From assembly GCA_003024785.1 (NCBI GenBank), contig PUQB01000873.1, positions 17,884-81,883 of the forward strand: a stretch of DNA of 64,000 bases, in the 5' to 3' direction. Under the pieces are notes generated by a model. The model was not told the DNA's origin. It did no database searches and saw only the letters and a list, made by a program, of their open reading frames with translations. A program made the position numbers and the translations under genes. Shown here one piece after another: positions 24,891 to 54,693 of the stretch; position 1 is the first letter of the stretch, and the number at the start of each line of letters is the position of its first letter. This DNA comes from Selaginella tamariscina (lineage: Eukaryota > Streptophyta > Lycopodiopsida > Selaginellales > Selaginellaceae).

Positions 24891-27476
24891 CTAAAGTTTC
24901 TTCTTTATCTTAAGTAAAGCTGCAGTTCTCGAACCACCAGCTAGGCTTGGACGTGGAGGTGTCTGAATAGGTATTTCCTCTGGTCTAATGTTCTCTGCGA
25001 GCTTGTTTGTTACTAACCTAGAGAGTTCGAAACTCTTCTCGGTTCCTATAATATTCCTTCCGAGCTTGACGGCAGCTAACAACGATGATCCGGTTCTGGA
25101 ACCAATATCCCAGACTAGGTCGCCATGTCTACTGAGACGCTCAATCAAAAGCTGTATGAGTCGAACACTCTTCGGTTGAATCATCATCCTGCACAAACTT
25201 CCATTAGGATAAACAAAGTAAAGTACTTCCTTACCAAGCCTCTTGAAAACGGTCGACGGTATCGACGAGGATCGTGTTCATCAACGCCAGAGGGTTTGGC
25301 CTCTTCGACTTCTTCTCAGAGCTTTGCAGCACCAAGAGAACCAACAAGTTATCTTGCCACATAGACCAAGTTAAACTTGAACTTGAATAGCTAGCTTGCT
25401 AGGTTACCTTAATTTTGTCACGTATCCCCAGCCTCATGCACGGTAGACGCTGTAAGTCCCTGCAACCTCCAAGTTGATTACCGCAGCCGCCTGAATCACC
25501 ACTGAAACAGAAGGAGAACTCGCGAAGACGACCATGAAACCACTCGCTGCCAAGTGCATTCCACTGAACTGCAAGGCCTCCTCAAACTTCACCGAATCTA
25601 GCTGCACAATGTCTTGTTGATGCTAGCACCTCCATATACAAGTTCATTGGGCAAGTCAAGGATGATGAGGTTGAAGCTGTATTCACCTACCACTTCCTGG
25701 AACACTGTTTGTGACTCAGCTGTCTATATTTTGTCAACTGTTGTCGGAGCTTGGTGTACACCTCTATCTGGGAAGCACCCGGCTCGAAAAGGACATGCTC
25801 ATCTCCTCCATATCGCACACAGCCAGGTCGTAGGATCCACGGGATGCAGCCAGTGTCGGGATGAAGGTGATTAGGTCGTCCTTGATGTCCAAACCAGCTA
25901 CAAGTGGCTGCACCTCATTAATTGTAAAGTCGATTGCTGGCGGAGGTGCTGTAGAAGAGCTTGGTCCCGCTCCCACTCCCTTTGCAGGTGTAGTTGTCTT
26001 CTGCACCATCTTCTTCATCTTGCTCTTCTTGATAGCCTCTACTTCGTCTGGCTCCGCTAGAAGATCATTGCCATGCATGTCGAACAGTGAGCTCTCCCAA
26101 GCTGGTGGCTGTTGCAATGGACAGTCGAGCCAGAATGGAACATGCTCTTGTTCGAACGGTGTTAGAGCTCCTCTGCTCTTCGACCACATGTGAGGCTCGC
26201 TTGTATGATCTGTCCACAGCTTCATCATTTGAGACGGTGCCATTTTCTTTGCCAGTATGAACTTGTAACACAAAGTTAGTCAATAGCAATGTTGGAATGA
26301 AAGCTTACCTCCATATCATCCGACGCGCAGACTCCTCACGCTCCAGAAACTCATTCGGCTCCATCAAATAAATGAACCGTATGCAGTCATGGAAGGGCTG
26401 AAAGACCAGGCACTTGCTCCGAGTTTGCATCTTGTCAAACCAGCTCATGAAGTCAACATTCGTTCCACTTCTTCACCATCCTCTCGCAACCCCTTAAGGA
26501 TCTGAATGGCTTCCTCGTGCACAACCTTCCAATATAAGTCCAAGGTGAACCACTTGATCCACTCTTTGTCCTGCATGCTTGGTAGCCCAAGTGTCTGTTG
26601 TTCTGCCTTGGATTCGAGACGAGTGAGCTTGTTCAAGTATCGGAGTCGCAACATGTTTGAAATCTTTGTCTTTGACATCGCGTACAGCTTCTCAATGCCC
26701 ATCCAGCAACATTGCTTATGAGAGATGTTCGTCACCTTCTGGAACCACTCCTCCCCAACTCTGGGTCTATGATAGAGAGGAACTTGTGCATACGCTTGTC
26801 ATGCTTCTTGTACACTAGCTGCTTCAGGTTCAGTTCAAGCTGTGGATTGCCTTTAGCACTGGTGACTGCTCTGTCGAGATCATCGTCGATCTCGTTCTAC
26901 ACATAGAATAAGTTAAAAACTTCTTTCCTATAAATCAAATCAGGTTACCTTGAAAAGGATCTTTGCACAGATCAGGTTTGGAAGAGGATGCCAAGACGTC
27001 TTTCATGTTGCACTCTCCTTCCACTTCTGCACCTCAAGACGATCAACCTCCGTGAATGACTCAAGGATTTTCTGAGTTCCTTCAGTACTAGTGCAGACCG
27101 CCTTTACAGCGAGGAGAATATGTGGTAGTGTTGTTTCCACAGATGTTTCTGAAGATCTATTCAATGAAACTGTAAGTCTTTAACGAAAAGAAAAGAAAAT
27201 ACTCACATGTTTATTGATTGGAACATCGAAACTAGTTGAAGATTGTCGAGGTTCTTCATGGAGATGAAACTCGATCGAACGCAAATAGCCCATCGCTGGT
27301 TGTCCTCTGCATCCTCTCGGTAGAGCTTCTGCAAAGCCTGTAGCCTATGGTTCCCGTCCCAGCAGCTGAACTTTCGGTTTGAGAGCCTCAAAGCCCACTG
27401 TCTGTACTCCGGCTGAGTAAGAGCTTGCTCAAAAGACCGGTGCTGCTCGTACTAAACCGTGTCCTTCAACAGCTCT
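24891..27476 (-). pseudogene. B2 ParB / amino-methyltransferase gene, C-terminal three quarters
   Basis: Reads leftwards. In order: a ParB-like box CWDGNHRLQAL (about 27,325-27,360); a helical region with KAKISNMLRLRYLNKL-type sequence (about 26,640); a proline/serine-rich linker (about 25,980-25,930); then a beta-class amino-methyltransferase. In the methyltransferase NLIILDLPNE (about 25,655-25,690) stands at the DPPY position, FMVVFASS (about 25,525) at the following strand, and QPKSVRLIQLLIERLS, DLVWDIGSRTGS and GRNIIGTEKS (25,190-25,020) match the ligand-binding half. It ends at TAG 24,891. DPPY reads DLPN and the FxGSGT loop reads DIGSRTGS, so catalysis is doubtful. Several frame breaks are present. 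The N-terminal part lies inverted at 27,582-28,214. Confidence 0.75.
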
Positions 27477-27477
27477 G

Positions 27478-28214
27478 TCTAGCTTGAGTTGGTAGCCACA
27501 AGGTTAGTCATCTTTGATTTTTATTTTTTATTTTGTCTCCTAATCAATTGACTTGTGTGTTTGCTTTCCAGAGTTTAAAAAATGGTGAGAGCTTCAAAAC
27601 GTCTACTAGAGACTGCGCCTGATGAAGAGCCACGGGAAGAGAAGAGGATATCGAAGCACAAGCGAGGCAAGAGAGGAGAACCATCTAATGTAGCAAAGGA
27701 GGATCCTCCAGTGACTCAGTCTGAAGTAGTACCAGTTGAGCAGGAGCAACCTCCATCAACCATCACAGATTTCCCGGAGAGCTCGTCGTAGTTGCCTCCT
27801 TCATCCGCTGAGGTTACAGTCCTGAACGAGCAAGTGCAGATGACAGAGGTAGTTGAAGCTCTTTCTTCTTTTAGTGAGGACGACTTGGAGGAGGCAGTCA
27901 GCAAAAAGAGAGGCCGCAGGAAAGTTGATCCAAAAGGCAAGAAGGCGAAGAGCGATAAGAGCTAAAGGAGTTATACAGCATACCGGCTAGCCTGCATTTG
28001 GAGAGCTCAGCGAACCTGCTCGACAAAATTACTATCAAGGGACTTGGTGATCCTCCTGATGTGCCCATCTGTAAAATGCATTCGAACGAGGTGGTTCGAT
28101 GAGTGAACCTAGGGGACTTGGACAGGCTGGTGTCATCGTTGAAGAAGGTTGGTTATCTACACAACACGGCCTTATTCATTCTGTCCATCGGAGATCCACT
28201 CACTGCTGAGGAGC
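27478..28214 (+). pseudogene. Inverted N-terminal segment of the B2 ParB-methyltransferase gene
   Basis: ATG at 27,582 opens MVRASKRLLETAPDEEPREE on the plus strand, opposite to the rest of the gene and to copies B1 and B3, where the same sequence is on the minus strand. The segment includes the basic N-terminus, the linker and the start of the ParB-like domain (DKITIKGLGDPPDVPICKM, then LFILSIGDPLTA). The inverted block starts at 27,478 within CTCTGTCTAGC and ends at about 28,214 within GAGGAGCTATTGG. It separates the gene into two opposed halves and removes any chance of a normal product. Confidence 0.75.
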
Positions 28215-28930
28215 TATTGGTGCCGACCCTCTCAGTCGGCACAGAAAAGTAGAAGAGCATATCATGCCGACTGAGATAGGTTGGTGCTGACCCTCTCAGA
28301 CGGCACTGAAGAGATAATGGTGCCGACTGAGCTAGGATGGTGCCGTCCCTCTCAGACGGCACAAATGGGAAGACCCATTAACTCTGAAAAAAAAAAAATA
28401 CTTGAGCCGCAAAGCAAAAAATAAACAAATTGAAAATACCTTGTGGCTGCTGACTGAACCAGGATGGTGCCGTCACTCTCAGTCAGCACAAATGGGAAGA
28501 CCCTTTATCTTTGGGATTCTGACACAAATGGGAAGACCCATTAACTCTGAAAAAAAAAACATTGTGATATGTATACTTGAGCCGCAAAGCAAAAAATAAA
28601 CAAATTGAAAATACCTTGTGGTTGCCGACTGAGCAGGAAGGTGCCGTCACTCTCAGTCGGCACAAATGGGAAGACCCTTTATCTCTGGGATTCCGACACA
28701 AATGGGAAGACCCATTAACTCTGGAAAAATGGATAGACCCAAAGCAAAAAAAAACAAATTGAAAATACCTTGTGTGTCGACTAAACCAGGATGGTGCCGT
28801 CTCTCTCACACGGCACAAATGGGAAGACCCTTTAACTCTGAAAAATAAATTATTTGAGCCGCAAATCATAAAATAAAAAAATTGCACATACCTTGTGGCC
28901 GCCGACTGAGCAGGATGGTGCCACAATCTA
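28215..28930. repeat. Hairpin tandem array 2 (B2)
   Basis: Five or six units with GGTGCCG(T/A)C...GACGGCAC or AGTCGGCAC hairpins followed by AATGGGAAGACCC. Some units have an extra AATGGGAAGACCC line (for example around 28,510-28,550 and 28,690-28,740). TGCCGAC/GTCGGCA heptamers within it match those just inside the B2 termini. Confidence 0.82.
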
Positions 28931-29407
28931 AATCGGCATAGAAATCTCAATTGATTTACTTGGGCGTGCACAAATTGACTCGAAATGGATGGCGTCGCTC
29001 CTCTCAAGCCCCTTGGAGGAGATTTCAGATATCAGATCTGAGATAGAAAAAACCCTAGCCGCAATGGAAACAGTAAATCCTATTTACCAAAAACCCTAGC
29101 CGCAATGAAAACAGTGAACCCTATGGAATAAATGTGACATTAATATTTAGGGTTAATATTAAAATATGTGAATAATTAGTAAAGGTGAAGATATTTCAAA
29201 TCATAAAAGGTAATAATTAAATTAAATCGGTGATACTAGAGAGGACAACATTTTAAGAACACTGTGAGCTGGGCAGCGTAGAATTAATTATATACAAAAG
29301 TGTATTCACGTTTATTATCAATGATTATAATTTTTTTTGGCGAACAAGAGTGTGTTTAATCTTTTGCTTTGCTTTCCTAAACCACCGAGCTTTCTCCTTG
29401 CGTTGTC
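28931..29407. other. Spacer upstream of the B2 transposase
   Basis: Same layout as 11,291-11,766, with CCCTAGCCGCAATG repeats at about 29,050-29,105 and an AT-rich stretch up to the ATG. No gene; the probable transposase promoter region. Confidence 0.4.
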
Positions 29408-32400
29408 ATGGCCAGAGTTACCTATGAAGGCATTGACAAAGATTTCCCAGTCGATGAAGATGAAAATGCTTTTGTGTTTGAACATGATCTTCACTTTGCT
29501 TTCAACATTCCTTGTTGGTTCAGTATACATGTTGGTTCAATTGATGTATTTCTGCGAGTTCTGGAGAAGATGTGGAGTTGTTACCAGAAGGCAATGCATC
29601 AAACCAGTTTGTCTTTTACACATTGTGCCCGGCAAAGGGCCCGTTGTTCAGGTTGTGGACAAAGGAGCGTGAGGAATCCATGCTGGTGTGTCTTCTAAGA
29701 GCAGACAAATGTAGGATAGGGAAGGATCTCATTGGTTCGTCTGAAGTTAAACGAGTCTCTGAACTACCGCAGATATACAATGGAAATGTCATTTATGAAC
29801 TTCCTCCAAAGAAAGAAAGCACAGAGAAGTACTTGGGGATGAATCGCAAGGACGGATGCTACCATTGGACACACCGAGCACAACACACTGGCATGTTCCA
29901 GCACGAGTCAGTCGAAGTTCATGTGTCGGACATCTCAAATGCATCAATCCTACTTGCCCCTACTTGGCTTTTGAGAAGAAAGCAAATGAATGTCACTTCA
30001 AGGGTGCTGTGAGAAGGCAAAGACAACTGGACAGGCAAAGACAACTGAGACAGGCAAAGTAATAGGCATGAAATGTAAGCATTGTGGAGAGGAGCCATTG
30101 CTAGTGCACACTTGTCCGGCTTATGTGTACTACATTTGCCAGACGACATTTCTTTTACAAGGTTGTTCATTCACAGAGGTGTTCATCAGCATCCAGTCAG
30201 CCCCTCAGTGTCAGCTTCAAACGTTCACGTGCCAGATCTAGTGTCAGCAACGTGGTAAAGAGCAGTCGCGAACCAATCAATGAGTGATTGAGTTTCAAGC
30301 TGCGCGTGAGCTCATCTTTGAAGAACTTTTCAAGGAAGAAGGAGAAGTCTCGTACACTGGTTTACTCTCAAAACTTGAACCTCTAACAAACCATCGAAGG
30401 TATTTTTCTTTAGATCTCTACACACTGACGTGACCTTTCCTTTAGGACTCGGGACTGGATTACACAATCAAGACAGAAGGAGACACACTTTAGAGAGGGT
30501 TACGAGGGTCTTCTGGAGCTGAAGACAAAGTTGCCAATACCTTTCATTCACGTCATACATGTTCCAGGGATGGAACTGCATGGTGCTGAGGAGCAGCCTC
30601 TGATCTTCAAAATGACAGTTGAGGGACCGGGTTCAGGAGTTGATTACATCAGAAGGTGTCAAAGTGGAGGAGACCTTCATGATCAATGGGTTGTTCTGGA
30701 CCACACGCACCGTATACCAGACTGGGCGACAATTGGAATACACCTTTATGACCCATTGTAAGTTGTAGAACTCTTCATAACACTTTCTAATCTTTGTTAT
30801 CTAATGCTTCTTACAGTGTCAGATCCATGGTCACTATAGCTTACGCAGATATGTGCCGCGAAGATAATGTTGCAGTGCTGAAGTTCTTGAACACAATGCT
30901 AGAGGTTTGTAAGAAACAGGGTTTGGAGAATGTCAACTTTGCTGGTTTCATGTCGGATGAGGCTGGAGCGATATGGATAGCCTTGCGCCAAGTATTCAAC
31001 AACGGAGAAAAGATGAAAGGGAGGGAAAGAAGCTGTCTGTTTCACTTTATGCAATCCGTGCGTCAGGTGACAAAGAAATGGATCGCAGAAGAACACCGCG
31101 AAGAACACATGAAGCTTGCTCGTGCCTGGTGCAGCACTGAATGAACAATCTAAGAAAGAACAACTAGCAATTCTCGAGTTTTTTGGGAAGGACGAGCGTC
31201 AAATATTCGTGCTTTGAAGACATGGCTGTCTTGGTGGATAGGCATGAGGACCACATCTCCATGGAACTGGGAGACATGACAGAAGAAGGACTCGCGAGTA
31301 TTCCAACTACAAACAATGCTGAAGTGATTCACACAAGAGCAAGAAGAGCAAGATTGGCCAAAAGAGTACCACTGCTGGAGGCAACAATGTTAGACCTCAC
31401 CGATGCAGTTAAGGTGAAAGCGGCAATAGAAGGGAGGTATACAGGGTCAGGTCCTTCGAAGAAACTCTGTTGAAACGAGTGCAACGAAACTCTCTGAGGG
31501 GAAAAGTGTATCTCCATCAACAATTATCAATCTGGTGGAAGACGAGGAACACTTGACCAGCCCGGAGTTCACAAGTACCACTAACGTTCAAGTGCAAACT
31601 ATTAGGAGAACAGTCACAGGAACAGAACAGTCTGATGCTCGACGTTCACACAGACATGATGTAGAGTATACAGAGCGGGTGGTCCAAAACAACAGGAGAA
31701 AGAGGTTAAGGTTCGAAGAGGTTTTGGAGAGAGAGATTGCACAAACAGAGTGGGCCATCAGACGAATCGGAGCATCCAGTAAGGTTAAGTGTTTGGGGAT
31801 GAATCAGGAAGGAACTGCTCTGTGTGGAAAACCAATCGGTTATCCAAGCAGAGTGCCAGCACCAGGATTCTACGGAAAACGAATGTACAGTGATGCCTTG
31901 GGGAATGAGGAGTATGTACAACAGATGATGTGGTTCTGCCCAAAAGATTCAGGGTGTTTCACGTGGCCAAACGGCAAAATTCTTCAGTCACGAATTCCAA
32001 CACCACCAATGGTTTGGCCTGTGCTCAAGGAAACAAAGCTGACAAGTGAGAGGTCAGAGAACTACAGGATGCAAGCTTTGTTCTCGAAGGTTTACAGGGG
32101 ACAGCAGGAATAGTAGATGAGGGTCAGAAGGACAAAACACCATTGCCACCACGTGGAGCTGGATCTACAACAATTCCACCTTTCGAAGGACGTATGGTCC
32201 GGACTCCAACAAAAATGTCTAAGGAACAAAGAAGCATTTCCACAAGGCCAAGACGTTTTTAGGTCGTGTGAGAAATGTTGAAGTGATAGTTAGAGGACGG
32301 AAGGAGGCTTTCATTGTGTCGGCAGGAAATGACTCTGCAAAGGTGACTATTAGTACTTATCCTACATGCAGTTGTTTTACCTTTCAGAAGAGCAAAAGTT

Positions 32401-34435: not shown

Positions 34436-34461
34436 ATGCATGTTGTAACTAAAATGGGCAT
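34436..34461 (+). repeat. Terminal inverted repeat end of A2
   Basis: Identical to the A1 terminus at 1,133-1,158 and near-identical to the ends of the 14.9 kb insertion. Confidence 0.72.
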
Positions 34462-34899
34462 AATACATGAAAATGGAAATATAAAATAAATTGCTAATTA
34501 ATACTTAAGTTTTAATTATTAATTAATTATTTAATTAATATATAATTAAGCCTTATATATTAATTAATTAATAAATTAATCCTTACTTAGTAAGGAATAT
34601 TCCTAAAATATCTTAGAATATTCATATTATTCTTCGTTGTAAAAATAGTTTACAATAATTAAAAAATATTATCAAACATAATTACAAATGAAATCATTGT
34701 ATGTTAATTTATTTATAAATACTTTCTCCTTAACCATACAAAGATATCTCCTCAATTTGTCTAAGTCATCACTCTTCATATTAATAGAATCATTTTTATC
34801 AATATCTTTATGTTGTTGCCACCACCTAACACTCTCACGAATCTAGTTAGGAGTTGCCATCCTTGTTAATACATAAGCTGTGATAAGAACAGGATTGCA

Positions 34900-35888
34900 T
34901 AAAGGCTTATTTAAAACATGACGTTCCTTAAGAATAATATTGTAGAGCGCCCGTTTGCTCTCTTCATTTTATAAAATTCAAAATCACGAAAAAAAAAAGC
35001 GTCAGGAAATGTTTAATATTGTGGATATTACTCACAAAAGTTTTTGAGATTCTCCTTTCTAAGGCACGTATCCAAGTAGTTCACTAGCTCATCCATGGTA
35101 TTGATATCAGAATATGGGTCGAAAGTGATTGGATGGATAATAAGCAATGTTTTGGTTGAGCATAGCCTTTTGAGGAGAGTCGTCTACCACTAAGATATGT
35201 GCATTCTTCATTATCCTTAACTGATTGATCTCCCCATGAAGCCCAATAAATCTTTCATTCTTGAAGAAATATGGCTTGCTTTCCTTTTTTATATCGTAAA
35301 ATTCGAGAGGTTTATAACATATTCGCTGGTCAAAAATTCAATCTTTACGAATCACCTTTTCTACAACACTACAATGTTTCTTAAGCAAATTTAGCAGCGG
35401 TGTCAAGTTGTGAATATGCATGCATGACCAAATCCCCACAAGTGCACCCATCTTCTTAAGCTTTTGAAAGAGACGGTCCAACCTCGGGCAAAAAATGATA
35501 TCATATCGAAATTTACCATGACAAGGAATGAAATCTTCTTGTTTGATTTCTTTTTTTCTATCCTCGGGCCTTTGTCAATGAAGCAGAACACCATTGAATC
35601 CAACAACACAATATGATCATGGGTAACAAGGGGTAGCATTGCCTCTCAAATGCTTTACAACTCACTTGTTTGGTCCTTTTCACATTTATCTGTTGACATT
35701 ATATTGTTGCCTATCTCTTTGTCATTTACTTGTACATCATCTTTACAAGATTTAGATATTGTAGGTGCTGAAGAAAGTGATTTAGGAACTGAAGGCAATA
35801 AAAATGGTGATGAAAAAACTGAAGTGGTCCCCATGGTAAGGATGTTTTGAGCTGCATTATTATCCATTTCCTGCATGAACTCTGTCAT
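34900..35888 (-). pseudogene. FCP1/SCP-like HAD phosphatase, A2 copy
   Basis: Reads leftwards from ATG 35,888. HIVLLDSMVF near 35,600 corresponds to the first HAD signature, damaged here (LLDVNGVLL in A3). The region 35,230-35,310 keeps the frame through KPYFFKNER, where A1 and A3 are shifted. VVDDSPQKAMLNQN lies near 35,150-35,190. The usual TAG after the terminal RH(V/F) is lost here and the frame runs on. Otherwise as described for the A1 copy. Confidence 0.7.
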
Positions 35889-36159
35889 TCTGACATGTGG
35901 CACAAGAAGTTTTCGCCAAACCCCTCTCTTACCTAATGCCAATGCTAAAAATCCATATTCTCAATTGTTTCATTACATTTGCAAAATGATAGTTAACTGG
36001 CCTTATAATTATCAAGGTATATTATTTACCTTGTTAATGTGTGACCCATGTTTGAACTAAAAACTTCTTTAATCCTTGAGAATTTATTTTCTGTACAAAT
36101 ATAAACAAAAATATACAAAAATGCCTTATGTTACATTCATTTACAAGTATTCGTCACTC

Positions 36160-40594: not shown

Positions 40595-40605
40595 ACACAA
40601 ATATA

Positions 40606-40653
<48 letters not shown>

Positions 40654-40860
40654 AGTGTGCATGTGTGTCAGAGATAGAAACATCAATAAGATTATAATAC
40701 ACACACATATATATGTATATATGTATATGTATACGTATATACAGGAGTGTGCGTGTGTGTGCAAGAGATAGATAAATAAATTTTATTATTAAGATACCAC
40801 ACTAAATGTATATGTAAATATAGATAATAAATATACACAGGAGTGTGTGTGGAGAGAGAG
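40595..40860. repeat. TA/CA microsatellite block 2
   Basis: Includes an uninterrupted (TA)n tract at about 40,610-40,650. Shorter than the equivalent at 7,256-7,710. Confidence 0.8.
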
Positions 40861-41230: not shown

Positions 41231-41256
41231 ATGCAAGTTGTAACTAAAATGGGCAT
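41231..41256 (+). repeat. Element C left terminal inverted repeat
   Basis: ATGCAAGTTGTAACTAAAA followed by TGGGCAT. Partner at 56,120-56,145. Confidence 0.82.
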
Positions 41257-41726
41257 GGCTATAGTCCCATTTCCTAATAATTAGCAATTTTAGCTATTTA
41301 ATTAGCATTTTCTAATATTAAAGGAATATTCTTTAGAATATATGTTTGAAAAAGAATATTCTTTAGAATATTCTATTTTGTATTCTACCCTTTAATAAAT
41401 TATAGCATTCATTGAACAAAAATTAATAACATTATAAAAGTAGAAGTATTAAATTATATAATATATTGCCTAATATAACAATTAAGGAAGAGCATAAGAG
41501 GTACATTATATAAATATTGATGTTGTTATTAAAATATTAATATTTAAATATAACATTATTAATTAAAAATTTGTATAGTATATATAAAATCCTATAATAA
41601 TATAGTCAATCTTCCATATCATTTTTTAAATTTATATAGTTAAGTATACAATTTGGTACTATTATTAAAGAGTTTATAATAATTATGAATATTAAATATA
41701 TGATATTTTATAATTTTGTAATTGCT
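41257..41726. other. AT-rich subterminal region of element C, left
   Basis: No gene. Contains GGAATATTC and AGAATATTC motifs near 41,320-41,375, similar to those inside the right end near 55,950-55,985. Confidence 0.5.
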
Positions 41727-44700
41727 TTAAGCTTCAGAAAACATACATTCCCTTGCAGTTTTGTTAATCGTGACTTTATCAACGCTTCTTGACATCCACC
41801 CATATCGAATGGATTTAACATTTATAAAACATGCTGGGTCTTTTTGATTGGGAGACCATGTTTTCTCTAGGCATCCATTATATCTTTCGCTCTCCTTCTC
41901 GTGTCGCCTTTTTTGTGGTTTGAACCATGCAACCTTAACAATACTATTTTTTGTGATTACTTCAGGTGTGTCGATAATTTGACCCATCCAAATAGGCTGA
42001 TTATATGACGCATCTGGAGTAATGAGAACCATCATTAGTTTTTGAAGATCCTTGCAGCAATCAAAGTATGCTTTAGGTTTTTGGTTCCTTTGTCCAACAA
42101 AGTGTGGGGTTTGCACTTCCACATCACTACTGGCTTCTATGTCGTCTGTGCTCAGTGATGTCATTTCAATCTCCTCTCGCCACCTTGTTTTAGGCCAGAA
42201 AGGGTGTTGCAATTCTGTACTTGTGACAGTAGGCCCTTCCAACTCTCGAACAACAGTCTCCCAATAGTGACCACATGCTTATATAGTTCTGAGTAACCAG
42301 TTGCCTTATCAGAATTCTTTGGCATCGATTTTTGAACCCATGCCACATATTTTTTGATGCCATCAATAATAACCTCTTGTTCCTTGAGCTGGGCACTCAA
42401 TGGAATAGGGTCTGGTTGTCCTTCTGGGAGAAGTGGCTTTCCATCCTCTCCACTTTTGAAGAGCATTAAGCCCTCTTTCGGTAACCACTCCTGCTCTGAT
42501 GGCCGTAACTTGTACTGCATAATAGGTATACCATCTCGTATGGAGAAAAAGAATTGTAGCGGCACAAGGTGACCAACTAAAGAATCACTCCCTTCTTTTA
42601 TATACTCCTTGAGAAATTTTTTGAAGTCTGGCACCTCAGTCACAAGCAAAGCACAACTTTTTTTGGAGATGCAATTTTCAAAAAGATTCATCATATGCGG
42701 TAAGTAAGTGCACTTGTCCTTTTTGTAGAGTTGGAGACCTTGCTGAAGAACGCATCAATATCTTCATGAGTGTGACCAACCATAAGGAAACTGAGCGTGA
42801 TTGTTTCAAACACACCTTTGGCAACAAGCATTGACAAGTATGCTAGCACATATCTAGAAAATAAAAGTAAGTATGAGCTTGAGAAACCCTTAAGTAAAAT
42901 GATTTACCTATTTTTGTTCTCGCCTGCACAATTATCCATCTGTAAAAGCAAATGACGAGGAAGCTTATTTGATGTTGAGGACACATGTACACTATTTGAG
43001 CTAGATCCCTCCACTGAACCTGAACTCTCAACAGGGCCATTTTTTGTGCAGGTTGTTGACAATGCCTCTCATATTCCCAAGTAGCCTCAAGTGCAGACGT
43101 GTTCATGAGAGCATTATGTAAAGGTTGAAGGTGTTGTTTCTTCACTTTGAGATCACTGATAGGACTTGTCTGTGAGTGGGCTTCAAGGTTTCTGAAACAC
43201 ATGGCTAACGACCCAATAGTGAAATTGGAGTCGCTAGACCAATGTGGAAGTGAAAAGTGTCCATATGACTCACAACCGTGTCCATGTGTTAGCACACCTG
43301 TCAATGAAATCGGAAGTTTCATGACATTTCCAAGGCACTTTGGTGTTGCAAAGAGCTTTGGAATGCTGGTCTTTGAATGATCCATCCATCTTGTCATGGA
43401 TCAAGCACAGGTACTCTGATGGGCGTGACACAGAAAGCATGCGGTGTGCATAGTACTGAGACCGGCAAGTTTGTTGTGCAATCATGTGGGCCTCCATCTT
43501 CCTTTGAATGGTAGTGATCTCCACCAAGGTTTTTGCACAAGCCTCTGCAGCCTTCAATGATGTACAAGTGTCACACTTAGAAAAGCTAGAGTGTTTTGCA
43601 ATCTCCACATCCTTAAAATGAGTATTCCATATGTTGTTGAAGGTACCAGTGCAGATTGCTTGGAGCCCCATCAAACTGAGGCACTTGTTCACATGTTCAC
43701 ACAGTTTCAATTGAGTGTAGATTGAAGGTAAAACCTTGAGATTTTCCCTGACCCCTGCATTTGTGGTTCGGCATTTGTGAGGCATCCTGTCTGCATTTGC
43801 TTCCACAAAAGCCTTGAGTATCTCTATGGCTGCCATGATGTGAGAGCGGGTTTTGACCAAGCGAGTGTTCCCATGAACTGAGGTTCGCGCTCCATCTAGC
43901 CACTCATCCCTCCGACGGTAGAACGTGGTCTTTGGGATCCCGTATATACTGTACCAAGCTTTGAAGCAGATGGCCACCTTATTAAATACCATGGATGTAC
44001 TCTGATAACCTGTGTCCGAGGCCATTCCATCAATACACCCAGTTAGTGCAGCATATACAAACTCATGCCTTTGCTTTTGGGTGAGCATACGAAAGACATG
44101 TCTACATTGGGTAATTTCATTCCGGTCTGCCATCTGACAACACTTCTTCTTGCAACAGTCAATCGTGGAAATGCTCGTAACACTTTCGGAAGATGTAGGA
44201 TCCATCTTTACCCTCTTGCTGAAACTTGCAGGGGAAGATCTACAACCCATGAATCGCCTTTTTCTTACAATAGGACCAATGCAAGGAACCTCTTCAAATA
44301 TGAGTTGTTCTTCCGGGTTGTTATTATTGAAATCCAACCCAGAATATGTTGAACCATCTTGCCGTCTTAATTCAGATGTTCGCCACCTCACGAGGGATCC
44401 AGGATACAATGTGCCATTAGGTGAAACCTCTGTCACAACTACACCCACGAAGTCGGACCCTAGTTTCTCTTCTGACACTGCTTCCATTGGATTTATAGCT
44501 GTGATGATGCCTCTTCCGACTTCAATCTCACGAAGAAAGAGAATCACCTCATCCATCACAGCAGGCAAGCCATCATCTGGTAAACTCGTGCTACTATTTG
44601 TTTGTGACTCTGCATATTCTGTGTCAGCCTTGACTTCATCCAAATTCCACAATACAGGAGAACCCTCCTCAAATTCCATTCCCAGAACCTCAACATGCTT

Positions 44701-44844
44701 GTAAATGGTGTTCACCCATACGTACACACAAGATCCTTGGGCAATATTGTGACATGATGCATTATTATCTCGAACTTCCACAGTTCCAGTGCCAACTATC
44801 TCGTTGTTCCGAAGAAGACATACTTTATCTCCAGTATTAAACAT
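41727..44844 (-). pseudogene. Candidate transposase with DKMD / DNCAGENKNR / GHTHEDID motifs
   Basis: Reads leftwards from ATG 44,844 (MFNTGDKVCLLRNNE). The first 500 residues are in one frame: an N-terminal region with beta-rich repeats, a cysteine-rich patch (CCKKKCCQ), AWYSIYGIPKTTFYRRR (helix-turn-helix-like), and FSKCDTCTSL. Then come DKMD (about 43,400), LLLQMDNCAGENKNR (about 42,910-42,950) and FLMVGHTHEDIDAFFS (about 42,755-42,800). These three acidic motifs are the hallmark of a poorly characterised protein family (I believe that of Pfam DUF7869) found in many transposon-rich eukaryotes. The C-terminal part has WMGQIIDTPE and ends at 41,727. A 54-nt intron (42,854-42,907) fits. Breaks: a GATG duplication at DKMD, a shift near 43,045, and a shift near 42,200. 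A role as transposase is inferred from motifs and position. Confidence 0.72.
42854..42907 (-). other. 54-nt intron in the candidate transposase
   Basis: On the minus strand the donor is GTAAATC (ending at 42,907) and the acceptor TTTTCTAG (42,854). Splicing joins ...GENKN to RYVLAYLSMLV in frame, restoring the conserved motif. Confidence 0.68.
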
Positions 44845-44856
44845 ATTGTCCTGCAC

Positions 44857-44997
44857 ATAAATAATTGTATTATTTATGATATCTGTTTATGCAATATTTC
44901 TAAGAAATCTGAATTACGGTTACTTAATAATATGCATATGCAATAATACATAATTATGTTTAGAGATAATATCTCATGTTTGATTAATACAACTGAT
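44857..44997. promoter_or_regulatory. Likely promoter or upstream region of the candidate transposase
   Basis: AT-rich DNA between the ATG and palindrome array 3. No core motif could be fixed. The array is immediately upstream. Confidence 0.3.
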
Positions 44998-45690
44998 GGG
45001 CGGGATTAATCCCGCCCACGAATCCCTCCGACGAGGAACGGTCGGCGGGATTAATCCCGCCGCCGACTCAACCCCTTCGGAGAGAGTCGGCGGGATTAAT
45101 CCCGCCTTGGACTCCCTCCGACAAGGAAGAGCCGGCGGGATTAATCCCGCCGCCTCTTCCTCCTCGGGGGGAGTCGGCGGGATTAATTCCGCCGACTCTT
45201 CTCCGGCGAGGATTAAGTCGCGGGATTTATCCCGCCGGACTCCCCCGAGGAGGAAGAGGCGGCGGGATTAATCCCGCCGGCTCTTCCTTGTCGGAGGGAG
45301 TCCAAGGCGGGATTAATCCCGCCCACAATTCTTACGACGGGGAATGGGTGGCGGGATTAAACCCGCACATAACTCTCTCCAAAACTATGATTTCAAAGAG
45401 ATCTCGGGATAAATCCTGTCCCCAAATCCTTAAAACAGGGAGTGGTGGCGAGATTAATCCCGCCACCCCTTCCCTGCCTCCTAAAATGGTTGGCGGGATT
45501 AATCCCGCCGACAACTCTTTCTAATAAATTCTGGTAACTCTTCATCAGTTGAGAAGGTTATCGGGATTAATCCCGCCACTCTTTTTCAGTGGCGGAGAAG
45601 CATTGCCCGAGAGATGGTGGCGGGATTAATCCCGCCACCTCTTCGAAGAGGCGAAAAAGAAATGGCCGGATTAATCCCGCCGCCCCGGTT
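44998..45690. repeat. Palindrome array 3 (well preserved)
   Basis: About fourteen units, most of them perfect GGCGGGATTAATCCCGCC (first at 44,999-45,016), with spacers of about 25-35 bp. Contains the long inverted repeat 45,091-45,321. Lies directly upstream of the candidate transposase. Confidence 0.9.
45091..45321. repeat. Long inverted repeat within array 3
   Basis: The left arm, 45,091-45,174, is the reverse complement of 45,238-45,321 with essentially one single-base length difference in a G/C run. The arms of about 84 bp each contain palindromes and flank a 63-bp loop holding two more. Confidence 0.88.
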
Positions 45691-47040
45691 AACCTAGAAT
45701 ATTAAGTTAAAAGGATATTTAAACGGGATAAATCCCTAACGGAATATATTATAATCCTAATGCATTCCTAAACCCCTAAATTGTAATTTTAAGAGAGAAT
45801 GTAAGAGAGTGAATCTTTATAAGTATTTTTAAATTTGTTTATAATACTTACTTGTAAACAGCACTGAAGGCGCCGTGCTTTCCTATAAAGAATAGCACCC
45901 AATTTAATCTCGCTCCTGAGATGATCACTATGAAGAAAAAAGAAGATCTAAAGAGTGAAAAATACAGAAATGAAGAAACCCTTGCCGGAGAAAGAACCAG
46001 ATCTGAATTTGAGTGGGAAATTAAATGCATTTTCAAATTTACATGTCAGACCGACAATACATATGTCAGAAATTCAAATTTTTTAAAAAGAACAGAAAAT
46101 AAAAAGATGAGTTGACACAAATATCCGACACTCTGACATATATACTCTCCAGTTCCAATGAGTATTTTAAAATTGCATTTAATGTTATTCAAGTGATTCA
46201 AGCTGTTTAATATTACGAAATTTTAGACTATATTCTACATTCTTAGTATTCAAGTATATTTATATTATTATATATATAAATATATACTTATACAATAAAT
46301 AAATTGATATATTATTATGTATCATTTAAAATATATTCATAGTCTGTTTATTATTATTTTTCTTAATTACTCGAGTATTTAGTTTTCATTTCCTAGTATC
46401 AATGGGATATTCTTTATTATTTTATTAATATTTGAAGAATATTCTAATATTAAACCTGATTATCATAATTAAATTAGTCTTGTTCTTAATTATTGCAGTA
46501 ATTATTCTACATTTGTATATATTAATGGGATTTTCTCAATTAATTTGTTATTATTTCAAGAATATTCTGTGTTAAACCTTATTATCAATATTAAATTAAT
46601 ATAATTATTAAACTATTACTATTATTAATAAAATATTATTATGTTAATTTAAAATATGTTCATAGTGTGTATATTAATATCATTTCCTTAATTACTTGAG
46701 TAATTAATCTTCTTTATATTAATGGGATATTCTTTATTATTTTCTTATTATTCCAAGAATATTCCAATATTAAACATGATTATGATAATTAATTTAGTTA
46801 ATTATTTGAGTACTTAATTTACATTTGTATATATTAATGGGATTTTCTCAATTAATTTCTTATTATTTCAAGAATATTTCAATGTTAAACCTTTTTATCA
46901 ATATTAAATTAATATATATTATTAAAACTATATATGGCTATATATTAGATAAAATCATATATTATTATGTATAATTTAAAATATGTTCATAGTGTGTTTA
47001 TTAATATTATTTTCTTAATTATTCGATGTTTGTTTTGCAC
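45691..47040. other. AT-rich DNA inside element C, no gene
   Basis: Contains a diffuse tandem arrangement around 46,370-47,030 with TATTAATGGGATATTCT and TTAAACCTGATTATCA repeated about four times. No reading frame is supported. Confidence 0.55.
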
Positions 47041-48189
47041 ACATATATAAACACAATCATAAATTTACACACGCATTACAAGAACTTACAAAAACACATA
47101 TGCACACACATGCACAACCCTAAACCAAACTGAAGAAATATGTTGCTTCTTTATTGAAAACATCATGTTCAACGCATGTATGATATATGTACTCAATCTG
47201 TGTGTATGTAACACATTGAATTTACATGTGTAATATTTATATTAAGCTTGTTGGGAGCAAACCCTAAACCCTAAACCCTGTGTATACATGTGTGTACAAA
47301 AATAATTTTTCAACACTCTCTCTTCACACCATGCATGATCCATCCACCCTAAACCCTAAACCCTAATATGTAACACAATGAATTTACTCATGTAATATGT
47401 ATGTATGTCTGTGTGTATACACGTATGTGTATGTATATATATGTGTACTTTCTGTCTTCTCTCATACATACACACCATGCATGATCCATGTTAATATGTA
47501 CTGTCTCTCTTCTCTCAAACATACACACCATGCATGATCTATAATATGTACTCGGTCTCTAATATTATGTACTAATATGTATGTATGTCTGTGTGTATAA
47601 TACACACCATGCATGATCCATAATATGTACTGTCTCTCTTCTCTCATATACTATGTATGTATATCTGTGTATAATATGTGTAAGTATATATGTGTACTAA
47701 TATATGCAATGTGTACAAAAATAATTTTTCAACACTCTCTCTTCTCTCATACATACACACCATGCATGATCCATCCTAAATCCAAAACCCTAAACCCTAA
47801 ACCCTAAACCCATGTAATATGTATGTATGTCTGTGTGTATACACGTGTGTATGTATATATTATGTGTATTAATATATGCAATGTGTATGTATGTATTGAT
47901 ACACATGAAACTTTAACACTCTCATGGACACACACATGTTAAATCCCTGCATGATTTATATTTTTGGGGTGTATGTGATACACCCACGCACACGCACGCG
48001 CTAATAATAAATGAATATTCGTTTAGGGCGAATCTATATTTTATTTTTTTAGGGTTTAAGTATATTCTCAGAAGGAATATTCTATTAGGGTTAATATATA
48101 TATTTAATTCCTTTAGGGTTTAGGTATATTCTTAGGGTTTCAAGAGGCGGCGGCTGTGAAATCGGCGGCGGCGGCTGTGCACACAGGTG
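47041..48189. repeat. Telomere-like CCCTAAA clusters and CATGCATGATCCAT repeats
   Basis: Perfect CCCTAAA runs at 47,259-47,279, 47,347-47,366 and 47,785-47,811. Between them, about five copies of an ACACACCATGCATGATCCAT-containing unit alternate with AATATGTACTGTCTCTCTTC. Related single-copy sequence, reversed, is at about 8,040-8,480 and 56,150-56,520. The 48,000-48,180 part matches the leader of copies 1 and 2, reversed. Confidence 0.8.
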
Positions 48190-48831
48190 AGATCTGTGTG
48201 TGTGTGTGTGTGTATGTTATGTATATATGTATAGGAGTGTGCGTATAATTTATTTATTAGATTATCTCTCCACACACACGCACACTCCTGTGTATGTATG
48301 TGTGTGTGGGTGTGTGTTTGTTTATTGTATGATTTTATTTGTTTCGCTCACACACGCATACACACGATATACATATACACATATATATATACCTATATAT
48401 ATATACATACATATATTATGTGTACCAGTATCTATAAATTTTTTTTATTGATCTATCTCTCACACACACGCACACTGCTTTATATATATATATATATATC
48501 AATGCATATTAACAAATAGTATACAACACTATTTATATATATGCTTATATATTCATATGGGTTATATATCTATATACACACATATATATATGTGTGTGTT
48601 TATCTGTATAATTTTATTTATTTATTAGTTTTATCTCTCGCACACACACGCACACTCCTGTGTATATATATGTGTGTGTGTGTGTTTGTTTATCTGTATG
48701 ATTTATTTGTTTCGCTCACACACGCATACACACAATATACATATACACATATATATACCATATATATATACATACATATATTATGTGTACCAGTACTATA
48801 TAATTTTTTTTATTAATCTATCTCTCCCACA

Positions 48832-48874
<43 letters not shown>

Positions 48875-49330
48875 ATATATTATATATATTATAATCAATG
48901 CATATTAACAAATAGTATACAACATAGCTCTATATATTCACAGACTCTCTCTTTCTCTATGGGTTATATATCTATATACACACATATATGTGTGTGTTTA
49001 TCTGTATAATTTTATTTATTTATTAGTTTTATCTTTCGCAACACACCACACTCCTGTGTATATATATGTGTGTGTGTGTTTGTTTATCTGTATGATTTTA
49101 TTTGTTCGCTCACGCATACACACGATATACATATACACAATATATATACCTATGTACACACATATATTATGTGTACCAGTACTGTATAATTTTATTTATT
49201 TATCTATCTCTTGCACACACACGTACACTCCTATACATACATACATATATACATATATATATATTAACACACTATATATATGTTGTGTTTTTATCTGTAT
49301 AATTTTTTTATTAATTTTATCTCTCGCACA
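48190..49330. repeat. TG/CA/TA microsatellite block 3 with tandem modules
   Basis: At least three modules of about 250-400 bp repeat the order ...TTTATCTGTATAATTTTATTT, CACACACACGCACACTCCTGTGTAT, CACATATATTATGTGTACCAGTA. Contains (TA)n at 48,838-48,895. Tyr/Ile/His-rich frames are not genes. Confidence 0.8.
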
Positions 49331-50995
49331 CACGCTAAGCCCTCGAGCGGCGGGATTAATCCTGCCGCTATATGGTTGGGCCATGGCAGCGGATAATCCC
49401 ACCGCCAAGGCCCTTCACGCAGGCTATGGGAGGCGGGATTAATCCCGCCGCTCTAGACAAACCGAAGAGCGGCGGGATTAATCCCGTCGCCCATGGCCTG
49501 CGTGAGGCCTCATCGGCGGGATTAATCCCGCCGCCCACCATGCCCTGCGCGGAATGCGCGGGATTTATCTCGCCGGCAATGGCCTATGTGAAGGCCCTAA
49601 TGGGCGGGATTAATCCCGGCGGATTCCGCGCAGGGCATTTACAGGGGATGGGCGGCGATTATCCCGCCGCTCATGAGGTTAACCGAAGAGCCTGCATGAA
49701 AGATCCTGCACGGAAGGCTAACCAAAGAGCCTGCATGACATGTCCTGCGCGTAAGGCGGCGGATTAATCCCGCCCCAGGGAATTCACGCAGACATGAACG
49801 GCGGGATTAATCCCGCCCCACGCTCATCCCTTTCGGAGGGCGGCGGGATTAATCCCGCCGCTCAGGCACTTCCGCAGGATATAAGCGGCGGGATTAATCC
49901 CACCCCACCCATCCCTGTTCAAAATGCCACAGCCAATATATATGTGTGAGCGCATGATTTATGAGAGGGCGCGAGATTAATCTCTCCGAACCTTCATTGC
50001 CCGGTGGCGGATTAATCCCGCCACCCTTTTTTTTTCCTCCATTGGTATGTTGAATCAATCCCGACTAACTCTGTCTGAGACGGAGAAGGTTTACAAAATA
50101 CCAATGGAGGGAACTGAGAAGGTGGTGGGATTAATTTCACCATCCCTTACATGGTGGGCGGATTAATCCCCGCCTTTTCGGAGCCCCTAAAGGGGTGTAA
50201 GAAATAAATCCTGCCCAATTCTCTTTGAGAACGAGAAAGGTGGCATCCAGCGGGATTAATCCCGCCGCCTACGGCCGAAGTGAAGGCTGGGCGGCGGGAT
50301 TAATCCCGCCGCCATTGGCCTGCCTGAAGGGCCTAGGCGGCGGATTAATCCCGCAAGATTTCGCACAGGGCATTGGCGTTCGGCGGGATTAATCCCGCCG
50401 ACTAAGGCCCGAGTGAAGGGCCTGGGAGGCGGGATTAATCCCGCCGGACGCCATCCCTGCGAATCGGGCGGGATTTATCCCGCCGCCATTGGCCTGCCTG
50501 AAGTGCCTAGGCGGCGGATTAATCCCGCCCGATTCCGCGCAGGGAATTGGCGTCCGGCGGGATTAATCCCGCCGCATAGGGACCGAGTGAAGGCCCTGGG
50601 CGGCGGGATTAATCCCGCCGAGTCTTCAATGCCTGTTGGAGGAATGAATCCCGCCACCCTTCCTTTTTTCTCCATTGGTGAGTCGGACCAATCCAAACGT
50701 TTCTGTCTGAGACGTAGAAGGTTTACAACATACCAATGGAGAGAATTGGGAAGGGTGGGAAATTCATTTAACCATCCCTTACATGGTGGGCGAGATTAAT
50801 CCCGCCTCCTTTCTGGAGTCACTGAAGGGGTGTGAGAAATAAATCCTGCCCAGTTCTCTCTGAGACCGAGAAGGGTGGCAAGATTAATTCCGCACTCCCG
50901 TTCAAGGCCTCCAGAAAGGTGGCGAGATTAATCCCGCCCACTCTTTCAGGAGGCATTGAAGGGGTGGCGAGATTAATCCCGCCGCACCTTCCATG
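49331..50995. repeat. Palindrome array 4 (largest)
   Basis: About 25 GATTAATC-centred units, mostly GGCGGGATTAATCCCGCC, with GC-rich spacers that recur in direct and inverted copies (for example GGCCTGCCTGAAG near 50,315 and 50,490). Lies upstream of the rightward ParB-like gene of element C. Confidence 0.9.
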
Positions 50996-51287
50996 TGAAT
51001 ATATATGTGTATTAGTATATATAAGTTGCATATCTCATTTTATTTACTTTTATCATCTTATCATAATATTTCGAGTAAAAGCTAGGAATCTATGTAAAAC
51101 TGTCCAGAGCTCACATTTGTGGTGGTTCTAAAACGAAATGTTATCTTTCTTTTGCACTAACACAAATGTGAGCTTCGGACAGTTAATTACGTCTACTTCT
51201 CTCTGTGTATTATTTTTGTATATTCGGGTTTATACAAGTGTGTGTGCGTTTTTATATGATTTGTATTATAGTGTATTATTTTGCAGA
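50996..51287. promoter_or_regulatory. Region between array 4 and the ParB-like gene
   Basis: Contains an inverted repeat, CTGTCCAGAGCTCACATTTGT near 51,100-51,120 against ACAAATGTGAGCTTCGGACAG near 51,161-51,182, able to form a hairpin of about 20 bp. It is conserved at 6,061-6,150 and 39,395-39,475. Probable 5' region of the gene. Confidence 0.45.
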
Positions 51288-52720
51288 AGGACGATTTGAT
51301 CAAACAAGGAGATCGAGTCATTAGTATGGAGTCGTCGTCAAATTCTGGGTAAGAATTAAAATAAAATCTGTTATACTCGGATACTTGAACTAATCATTTT
51401 TGTATTCAGATGTGGAATTGAGGTGACATTAAAGACAAGAGCAGGAGAAGAGATGGGCAGGGGGATTCTGGAATCAACTTGGCCATATTTTAAGATAAAT
51501 GGGAAGCGCATTGGAGCAACCATGGCTGCTGTCAAATTAACCTCTGTCACATCTCATGGACAAGCAAAACAATGGAAAGTAGATTCGCTAGTCAAGCACC
51601 CGAAAGCAGGCTGCGAACCCAGATTGGACGATCTCGACAGATATGCCTTGTTCCATCCAATGTCACGTTCTCGGATCCAGAGGTCGTCAGTTACAACATT
51701 AATTTCGGGTGGTTTTGTCGACTTGTGGATAATGACGTTCACGTGTTCACTAATGATGTTGACCTTGGAGTTCTTCTTCAACTCAACGAAAGCCCATCTA
51801 TGGAGGGGATCCATCTGGATGTCTACTTCGAAATCTTCAGACTCATCGAGTAGGTGTATTGTCAGGAGATATTGCTTCACAATACAGAAAATCAGCAAGT
51901 GGAGCAATCTTCCCTCTTCACATTGAAGAAGAACACAGCGACATCATAAGGAGATTGAGAGGGTGGCTCGGTCTCAGGTTCTCTACAGATCACGTTCAAT
52001 TTGCTTAGGAGCTTTGGGAGCTGGAAGAGTGCCGAGAACACTAGAACAGCTGCAGTCGGGGATCACACATGTTGATTCGGATCGCAAAAGAAAATCATCA
52101 ATCGTTTTGTCAGCTGCACCTGTGGCATCTCATGCTGCAATAAGTCACAAGGAAATGATGTTGGATGAAAGATTTATCCTTGTAGGGTTAAATATTGCAG
52201 CGTCAACCCAAACTTCAATTACAGGCCACTCAACCAGGAACGTGTAGCTGAGCTCATGGAGAAGATGAAGGACGACAATTCTTATACCGTTCCACATAAT
52301 GCTGTTTTGTGTCCATACTATGAAAGAAGGAAGGGCGCTGACAAAGTCTGGATCACAACACCAGAACAACTCATGAAGATTCAGACGGAGAATAAAAAAT
52401 CTATCAAGTACTACATCATTAGTGGCCAGCACACAATAACGGCAGCCCAACGACTTCTCGATGAACACAACAAAGGAACGATGGCAACAAAACTTTCCGA
52501 GCATACCCGTGAGAAGCTGACAAAAAGATCGGCGTTTTTAGCTAAGCCGAATCTCACAATCGAGCAGTACCATAAGTTATCGGCGGAATGGGACGCTGCC
52601 GACACCAACCACTACAACAGCAAAATATGGGAGAAGTTTAAACACACGCGAGCCGTGTGGGAATCTCTTCAGCGACCACAAAGAGCTACCGCAGGGAATA
52701 CACAATCTGCGGAATACCGG

Positions 52721-52781
52721 GTAAGCAAATTGTTTGGGCGGGATTTATCTCGCCGGTATATTAATCTGTCTTTTTCCTCAG
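52721..52781 (+). other. 61-nt intron carrying one array palindrome
   Basis: GTAAGC donor and CCTCAG acceptor. The 18-bp palindrome GGCGGGATTTATCTCGCC (52,737-52,754) fills about a third of the intron. The same intron with the palindrome is found in A1 and A2. Confidence 0.78.
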
Positions 52782-53625
52782 AGAGTTGAAGAAATTGCAG
52801 CAGTTGATTTTGCCCAGGTGGGCGGGAAGGAAACATCCTTTCTGATGATGTTGATTTCTTGCCCCGAAGATAGGATCTTTGCCAAATGGTTGGGGATTAT
52901 GGAATCCTTTTCAAAAGGAACACTGAAGAAGAAGCAGACAAGTGAAGGGGAGCCCTCAGAAAAGTCTGCAAAGAAACCCAGTAAGACGCCGAAGGCTAAG
53001 TCTGTTCAATCTACAAAGGATGTAGACAACGATTTCAAGCTCACATGGTTGAAGCCTTTAAATGGAACAACGATGGAGGAGATGGAAGTCTTGGCTGATT
53101 TGGTGATCGATGGCAAACTACAAATTAATAACAGCAGCCCAACCTCTCCTTTTCATCTCAAGGCAATGGAGTTGAAGACGGTCAGGCATTTCAAGGAGTG
53201 GTTGGGAATACACTGCCACAAACTGGGTTGGACCTCGACTTCAACATATGAAGAGGTCAGCAAATATTTGCATGTGACGAACGATGATATGCTTGTCGAA
53301 TGGGTGAACCAATCGGAAGATCTAGGCAAGAATCTATTGCACGCCAACGCCAAAAAGGAGAACATTGGGATGACGCCTTCTCTTATGGCAGTCCTTCAGC
53401 AGCGGAGAACCGAATTGAACCTTATAAAGGAGGATGCTACGAATCACGACAAGCCCTACAGATGTTTGTTGTTAGATTCGGAGACTTTATGGGGTAACAT
53501 CACTGCTTGTAGGAAACCGTTTCAATTGTTCGTGATGGATCGGCGGGTGTCAAAAAATCTTTCGACAGATAGGGCACTAGAGGATCTGGTGGAGAAACTT
53601 AGCCGTGCAAGCATATACATAGAAG

Positions 53626-53678
53626 GTATTTATTATTGAATTCATGCTTGCGCTCTTCACTGATACCTACTTTTTCAG
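53626..53678 (+). other. 53-nt intron in the methyltransferase-like part
   Basis: GTATTT donor, TTTTTCAG acceptor. Splicing links ...SIYIEG to IYFLILAHVTDTF in frame. Confidence 0.65.
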
Positions 53679-54693
53679 GTATTTATTTCTTGATTCTTGC
53701 TCATGTCACCGATACTTTTGCCTTCGCCTTCGCCAAGAAGAATAGACATCGTTGGACAGGATTTTATATGAACGATGCTAATCCCAAGTGCATTGATACC
53801 GTTGTTCACTTGGTTGTTAGGAATGCGCCAAACAATTTCAAGCTTCCAAATGACTGGCCAGGCATCTGTTTGCACTCCAACGGCCCTGAACCTCCATCCG
53901 ATACACCGATAGGTATGAGTGACGTATTCGGCAATGTACGTTATCCAAACATTACAAGTCAAGCGGCACGGAGCATCGTCAACTTGATTAGGGGTCCTCA
54001 CAGTGATGCGTGGGTTTTTGACTACTGCACTAGGGGGTCCGTCTTGAAGGAGTGTTACCTTCGGCATACATGTGTGTTTGCCGTTGAAAAGGATAAGACC
54101 ATGGTTGAGGACCTGAACAAGTGGATAGATGGGTCTCAACTGAGTACCCCAACGAATCCATAAAGGCGTATTTGAGAAAGTTCCCTCCAGATAAGTGCGA
54201 TAGCTCTGAAGGTGAATCTGGTTCAATCTCGGAGTCTGAGAACGAACTTCAATCAGATATTAGACCGGAAGTTATCTCGAGGAGTACAGAACATTCGCAC
54301 ACTCCAGGACCCATGGAAACATCAATAGAAGATGCAGAAGATCTTGAACCATCTCACAAGCGGCTTAGACCTTCTTCGCCTCACTCAGAAGGTAATAGCG
54401 AAGAAGAATTGTTAATGAATTGTTAGAGTGAGAATAGTTGTAAATGAGTGTAACATAAGGCATTTTTGTATATTTCTTTATATTTGTACAGAAAATAAAT
54501 TCTCAAGGATTAATGAAGCTTTTAGTTCAAACATGGGTCACACATTAACAAGGTAAATAATATACCTTGATAATTTTAAGGTCAGCTAATTATCATTTTG
54601 CAGATGTAATGAAATAATTGAGAACATGGATTTTCAGCATTGGCATGAGGTAAGAGAGGGGTTTGGCGACAATTTCTTGTGCCACATGTCAGA

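Follow-up and report, generated by a model that had tools for sequence, protein, structure and literature searches.

As far as the available text of a study of Ectocarpus goes (PMC12477816), the Sola1 transposon Sola1-1_Ec32 contains an accessory gene for a 1104-aa protein with a ParB-like and an N4/N6-methyltransferase part, cases of ParB-methyltransferase genes in green and red algal transposons are cited, and a role in binding and modifying the element's own DNA is suggested with no target site named; ParB-plus-methyltransferase genes in algal transposons were thus already published. According to the accessible parts of PMC5735166, the VANC proteins of Arabidopsis VANDAL transposons target short motifs within rapidly changing tandem repeats that differ from copy to copy and are situated both upstream of the transposase gene and in an intron of the accessory gene, while proteins and targets are described as strongly family-specific (PMC5735166, PMC10398659). 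Phage fusions such as Gp25 of Acidithiobacillus phage AcaML1 also have a ParB-like part followed by a methyltransferase. The sources that the Ectocarpus study cites for the algal cases are Petroll 2025 and, reportedly, a 2011 paper by Iyer and colleagues. Here we analysed 64,000 nucleotides of the Selaginella tamariscina genome (contig PUQB01000873.1; this whole stretch is called the window), which carry two transposon families, B and A/C, the latter comprising the complete element C and older copies termed A. An earlier note on this DNA had described two families that differ in their transposase candidates and both have a long accessory gene bearing a ParB-type box, and this description held, all peptide motifs claimed for A, B and C being located in the window. 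A new finding is that beside the genes of either family lies an array of inverted-repeat sites peculiar to that family.

Element C (41231-56145) is a complete DNA transposon of 14,915 bp, whose ends were placed where copies fetched from the genome cease matching. Its termini are inverted repeats starting ATGCAAGTTGTAACTAAAATGGGCATG (41231-41257, plus strand; fetched copies extending this far end alike) and ATGCACGTTGTAACTAAAGTGGGCATG (56119-56145, minus strand), flanked by a target-site duplication ATGT (41227-41230 and 56146-56149). The window contains a segmental duplication of ~16 kb (2-16247 versus 33314-64000) that matches except for one insertion, element C, and the empty site with a single ATGT lies in the duplicate at 8077-8080. 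A 4-bp target-site duplication was observed in three of the four C copies with both ends readable (ATGT in the window, GTTT in C324, and ATAA with one extra A in C202) and was not found in the fourth, C536. The C202 copy (L034/L017) is inserted in the phosphatase region of a second element of C type, and an uninterrupted homologue of the insertion site is present in the window's C. Terminal inverted repeats and target-site duplication identify element C as a cut-and-paste DNA transposon.

Gene order in C was compared across a genome of 300.7 Mb in 1391 contigs. Among the best 80 of 7351 first-look matches to the first frame of its transposase candidate, described below, 70 (the window's own included) were 100% identical over the matched stretch, and ten of these 80 loci were fetched, two of which (C536 and C586) have long flanks in common and are not independent. 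In nine of the eleven C loci (ten fetched plus the window), the ParB-box exon lies on the strand opposite the transposase candidate and divergent from it, with the array between the two genes; the exceptions, C324 and C462, are both rearranged. The transposase candidate is a gene of several exons on the minus strand (41727-44886; open frames 43270-44886, 42843-43400, 42161-42754 and 41727-42278), provisionally of DUF7869 type, as judged from PF25273 and the motifs DKMD (43384-43395), DNCAGENKNR (42907-42936) and GHTHEDID (42754-42777). Like DUF7869 proteins, it has one exon matching PF25273 (42846-43400; E 9.1e-6; another exon reaches 12.5 bits) together with DNCAGENKNR and GHTHEDID; unlike them, it falls just below the cut-off (25.8 versus 26 bits) and lies inside an element with ends and a 4-bp duplication. 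A search covering part of the open-access literature found no paper pairing 'DUF7869' with 'transposase'.

The ParB-box gene of C is encoded on the plus strand and was delimited by open frames. Its N-terminal exon or exons (51400-52718, start approximate) include a ParB-like stretch (52169-52450) with the peptide SGQHTITAA, of which SGQHTI occupies 52421-52438 and recurs in the older A copies at 4812-4829 and 38164-38181 on the minus strand. The next exon (52782-53625) terminates in the motif-IV-like FQLFVMDRRV, and a further exon (53679-54160) contains VFDYCTRGSVL and is the proposed methyltransferase end, for which there is no profile support. All of the best 150 of 4850 genome matches to the ParB-like exon, a sample biased towards intact copies, are stop-free and at least 99% identical. 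Frameshifts in the accessory gene differ between close C copies (L013-L034) and may be assembly errors and not decay.

The sites of the A/C family are 18-bp palindromes. The sequence GGCGGGATTAATCCCGCC occurs 27,128 times exactly in the genome, and its reversed control not once. At up to four mismatches the window holds 83 places (18 of them exact), all within C (44), A copy 1 (18) or A copy 2 (21), whereas 50 first-order Markov shuffles contained on average 0.06 sites and at most 2. Within C, a first cluster of 14 sites at up to four mismatches (44999-45681) starts 113 bp upstream of the DUF7869 frame, a similar distance being found in other C copies, and a second cluster of 29 sites (49349-50983) lies upstream of the ParB-box gene, in whose intron (GT/AG, by eye) a single palindrome-like site with two mismatches is located (52737-52754). 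Successive sites in C are 40-50 bp apart for 26 of 43 distances. In eight fetched copies with standard gene order, the intergenic stretch contains 18 to 47 sites and the remainder of the fetched DNA 0 to 3, if the 800 bp next to the ParB exon, with the intron site, are left out of the count. Because a C copy has 12 to 31 exact sites (mean about 19), the genome-wide number corresponds very roughly to 1,400 element-equivalents. The palindrome has the core ATTAAT. In its two commonest variants (four each) a C next to the CG has become T or a G there has become A, as might be expected if methylated cytosines had decayed.

Element B carries a different array in a comparable position. We took B as one element because its gene order is conserved in two independent loci of the window, in which no copy of its accessory gene is whole. 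Copy 2 (24.9-32.2 kb) has a broken ParB/methyltransferase gene on the minus strand (24894-28220), with methyltransferase exons within 26279-24894, DGNHRLQAL at 27332-27358 (minus strand) and an inverted ParB N-terminal part at 27478-28220, followed by the array (28220-28922) and by divergent transposase-like open frames on the plus strand (29381-32113). Copy 3 (56988-62770) shows a ParB N-terminal frame (58549-58040, minus strand), an array (58811-59538) and transposase-like frames on the plus strand; copy 1 (8907-14550) is the same locus duplicated, and in neither of these two were methyltransferase exons found. The array thus lies between accessory gene and transposase-like frames. Its sites read GTGCCGWC-N7-GWCGGCAC, a 23-bp pattern with 1,761 exact occurrences in the genome (reversed control 0). 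When up to three mismatches are allowed, the three copies in the window have 18 sites between them and a single off-register match. A relative of B elsewhere in the genome, L049, has six sites and one off-register match, all upstream of a B gene whose frames are open: four main frames of 309, 294, 309 and 129 codons in order (sum 1,041) hold the ParB N-terminal part, DGNHRLQAL and the methyltransferase end, the last-exon join adding a short fifth frame, with exon borders set by eye. On the contigs listed for arrays, sites lie upstream of all three scored B methyltransferase exons (two on C14, one on C111), a small sample, the nearest at 2.9-3.2 kb.

Because this anatomy closely matches the VANC system, we read the accessory genes and arrays as pairs of self-recognition protein and site, most likely serving anti-silencing, a tentative reading to which we give a probability of about 0.45. 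As with the VANC targets, to the extent that these are described in the available text, sites of C lie upstream of the transposase candidate and in an intron of the accessory gene, and their number varies between close copies. Unlike VANC targets, the sites of B and C are inverted repeats; anti-silencing is proposed here by analogy, and the VANC domains DUF1985 and DUF287 gave no Pfam match in the A exons or in exons 1, 2 and the joined 3+4 end of B. In addition to a transposase candidate, each element would encode a DNA-binding accessory protein and contain the inverted-repeat array which that protein recognises. The ParB-like part would bind the sites as a dimer, and the protein would load densely on the array and thereby keep the element's promoters open against host silencing, with a benefit confined to the protein's own family; it would resemble VANC in action without being VANC. 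At the C-terminus, the proteins would retain a methyltransferase remnant that has lost its catalytic activity in A/C and is of doubtful activity in B. The earlier note had suggested silencing escape or transposase guidance, and the site arrays beside the genes lend this indirect support. If the reading is correct, self-recognition arrays arose in parallel in VANDAL elements and in the B and C elements, and the 27,128 exact 18-bp palindromes form an unusually strong family-specific binding landscape for a plant genome. The arrays would also supply a candidate target for the binding and modifying role suggested for the algal ParB-methyltransferase genes, making that suggestion testable.

Several results, gathered in this and the following two paragraphs, weigh against this interpretation. 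The first concern the identity of the ParB-like part. PF02195 matched neither A (Pfam, E up to 1) nor exon 1 of the B gene in L049, and no match came from an exon-by-exon search of the genome (E up to 0.001). When scored with a small ParB profile, A was equalled or exceeded by 32 of 1000 shuffles and B, in four constructs, by 11 to 47 of 1000. HHalign of A with ten phage ParB-type proteins gave 1.6 and 3%, under the best of 100 shuffles (14.4%), and a search of the PDB with the ParB-like stretch of A returned chance matches only. The arginine of the box, found in all ten phage sequences and kept in B (DGNHR), is lost in A. Phage sequences gave no match to the A stretch, and viral contigs held no relatives of it or of the DUF7869 frame. 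AlphaFold2 models of A fragments had mean pLDDT values of 44.8 (ParB-like exon) and 33.9 (methyltransferase-like exon), both too low to decide on a fold, the former finding no PDB match with Foldseek at E up to 0.001. The box positions of A and B align as expected (SGQHTITAAQRL and GNHRLQALQKL), and because of this we keep 'ParB-like' as a working label and not as a statement of membership. The box peptides claimed earlier are present in both families; homology to ParB is weak in either, PF02195 being unmatched in both, and judged by sequence a ParB identity of the A/C and B proteins is only suggestive. A more specific version of self-recognition, modelled on parS, would have a ParB-related protein whose methyltransferase end has degenerated load onto arrays unique to its own family, spread over the element and mark self against silencing, two unrelated elements each having evolved such a protein-site pair; this seems to us doubtful.

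A second group of results concerns the sites themselves. In pairwise comparisons of eight C copies, sites diverged by 1.5% (172/11,502), a value biased downwards by the use of motif similarity to define a site, spacers by 3.6% (801/22,479) and the rest by 1.3% (1,035/81,806), so that sequence outside the arrays differs no more than the sites do; homogenisation of the arrays could also cause the low site divergence. Symmetric double changes, seven at position 5 and two at position 3 of the C sites, show no clear excess over independent change, which predicts about five at position 5 by hand arithmetic, and compensatory change was dropped as proof of dimer binding, being weak in C and offering few independent sites in B. 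Of the B arrays listed, most lie away from any scored methyltransferase exon, 150 of 1358 candidates having been scored. A rival explanation is that the arrays are hitch-hiking minisatellites which bind nothing of the element's, the protein motifs being due to chance in A/C and to a decayed capture in B. Tandem arrays readily expand, the ParB tests lie near chance and the A/C methyltransferase tests at chance, all as this explanation would have it. It does not lead one to expect that two families without detectable similarity both place inverted-repeat sites beside an accessory gene, that spacers are more diverged than sites (3.6% versus 1.5%, with the bias from site definition), or that accessory exons are open, with no stop in the best 150 C candidates, and we consider it improbable.

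Third, the transposase could be the binder instead. En/Spm elements have subterminal repeats bound by their transposase, and the arrays here might likewise be bound by the transposase itself, or by a small separate product that its gene encodes, with the ParB-box gene a passenger or in another role. The start of the first cluster 113 bp from the DUF7869 frame, repeated at similar distance in other copies, agrees with this, as does a sub-threshold match of the N-terminal DUF7869 frame to Transposase_23 (TNP1/EN/SPM; E 0.24). Yet the larger cluster lies on the side of the accessory gene and one site in that gene's intron, the sites are away from the element ends, and the older A copies keep sites by the accessory gene with no DUF7869 gene seen there. 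We consider binding by the transposase rather unlikely.

The methyltransferase-like region proposed for both families was confirmed for B and not for A/C. In B copy 2, PF01555 matches 24894-25277 above its cut-off of 26.7 (27.5 bits, E 3.6e-6), and the joined end of the L049 gene does so more strongly (37.5 bits, E 3.1e-9), with a match to phrog_67 (E 2.9e-11) and resemblance to the adenine methyltransferase MboIIA (E 4.6e-4). The B domain also scored 51.7 bits with a profile built from five phage methyltransferases, over positions 61-243 of 253, with none of 1000 shuffles as high. A beta-order amino-methyltransferase domain in B is thus real by sequence. Among the 150 of 1358 first-look genome candidates that were scored, L049 included, the exon is 82-91% identical when the window is set aside, some copies having stops. 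For A/C, PF01555 (E up to 1), NCBIfam and the PDB gave no match, 253 of 1000 shuffles scored as high, and HHalign with the phage methyltransferase set yielded probabilities of 0.1-0.2%; the profile-profile comparison that the earlier note had proposed was negative for A with both phage sets. The proposed motif IV of A/C reads DRRV in ten of eleven matching loci, the window's C included, L021 being frameshifted there, and the proposed motif I reads DYCTRGS in ten of eleven, the other locus having DYCSRGS; at these two places the window's older A copies have DRQV or DQ-stop-V and DCSTRGS or DCCTRGS, respectively. With no profile support, no motif IV, no GxG motif I and all tests at chance, a methyltransferase domain in A/C is unsupported.

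Whether the B domain is catalytically active bears on a further explanation, namely that the accessory protein is an active methyltransferase which places 6mA or 4mC on the element that encodes it, the ParB-like part serving only to direct it there. Motif IV of such enzymes is (D/N/S)PP(Y/F/W). B has DLPN, in window copy 2 and L049 alike, which departs from this pattern and replaces our initial reading of the motif as DMEE. Since two of the five phage methyltransferases carry DIPY, the DLP part is tolerable and the main departure of B is loss of the aromatic residue. The profile scores given above (51.7 bits with 0/1000 shuffles; PF01555 at E 3.1e-9) and a motif I with an intact GxG in L049 (DIGSGTGSS; DIGSRTGSS in the window) are what an active enzyme would show, and the available text of the Ectocarpus study proposes such a role for its gene (PMC12477816). 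Against activity stand the replaced aromatic residue in B, in a region left unaligned to the profile, and element C, whose domain has DRRV in ten of eleven loci and is unrecognisable as a methyltransferase. We therefore hold active marking of the element to be quite unlikely.

Both families resemble the described fusions in outline and differ from them in these same positions. Like Sola1-1_Ec32, as presented in the available text, they are large DNA transposons, C with defined ends, that have a long ParB-like plus amino-methyltransferase-like gene on the strand opposite the transposase, of similar size (1104 aa there, 1,041 codons in the four main L049 frames with borders set by eye); unlike it, B and C belong to a genome that has a LEAFY gene, and they have other transposase candidates, site arrays, and doubtful or absent catalytic motifs. 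No further such case was found for ParB with bryophyte or Chlamydomonas transposons among the papers listed from the part of the open-access literature that was covered. The phage proteins share the order of a ParB-like part followed by a methyltransferase, with DPPY following the ParB part in four of the ten compared, and the arginine of the box is retained in every one of the ten (GHGR, GHTR, GHQR or GFHR), whereas A has GQHT with DRRV and B has GNHR with DLPN. Direct comparison of the A and B proteins was at chance, with 269 and 398 of 1000 shuffles as good in the methyltransferase region and 126 of 1000 in the ParB region, so that the two are not detectably related to each other by sequence and the suggested shared ancestry found no support. 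Nor did the description of B as Mutator-like: six inputs from its transposase-like part (five frames and one join of two) matched no MULE or other supported Pfam family, with one sub-threshold match to DUF951, although the frames are broken and this absence is weakly evidenced.

The remaining features of the window concern its older copies and neighbouring genes. A copy 1 (1133-8070) is about 86-87% identical to C, has a ParB-box gene and a palindrome array, and is duplicated as A copy 2 (34436-41230), the right ends of both being approximate; no DUF7869 gene was seen with either. Each half of the segmental duplication contains one A and one B copy, in pieces about 86-94% identical, and C interrupted one half later. 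A further B-type locus, L048, was left unused since its upstream part is mostly N and its 492-codon open frame is therefore not real; it has an A-type coding piece on the other strand. The third gene of C is a NIF (CTD-type) phosphatase-like frame on the plus strand (54884-55330; PF03031, E 1.3e-5, 25.4 bits, cut-off 21.8), an odd passenger for a transposon, within a region (54649-55664, plus strand) that also aligns to the older A copies. The genome has one match to the LEAFY domain (PF01698, E 7.8e-38), with none in 14 control genomes, which are prokaryotes as far as their names go; LEAFY is a mark of land plants and some algal relatives, and together with the terpene synthase class described next it indicates most probably a non-seed land plant. 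Finally, a terpene synthase frame on the minus strand (22582-23247; PF19086, E 1e-24) lies about 1.6 kb from the end of the methyltransferase exon of B copy 2, the microbial-type class of terpene synthases being found in non-seed plants.

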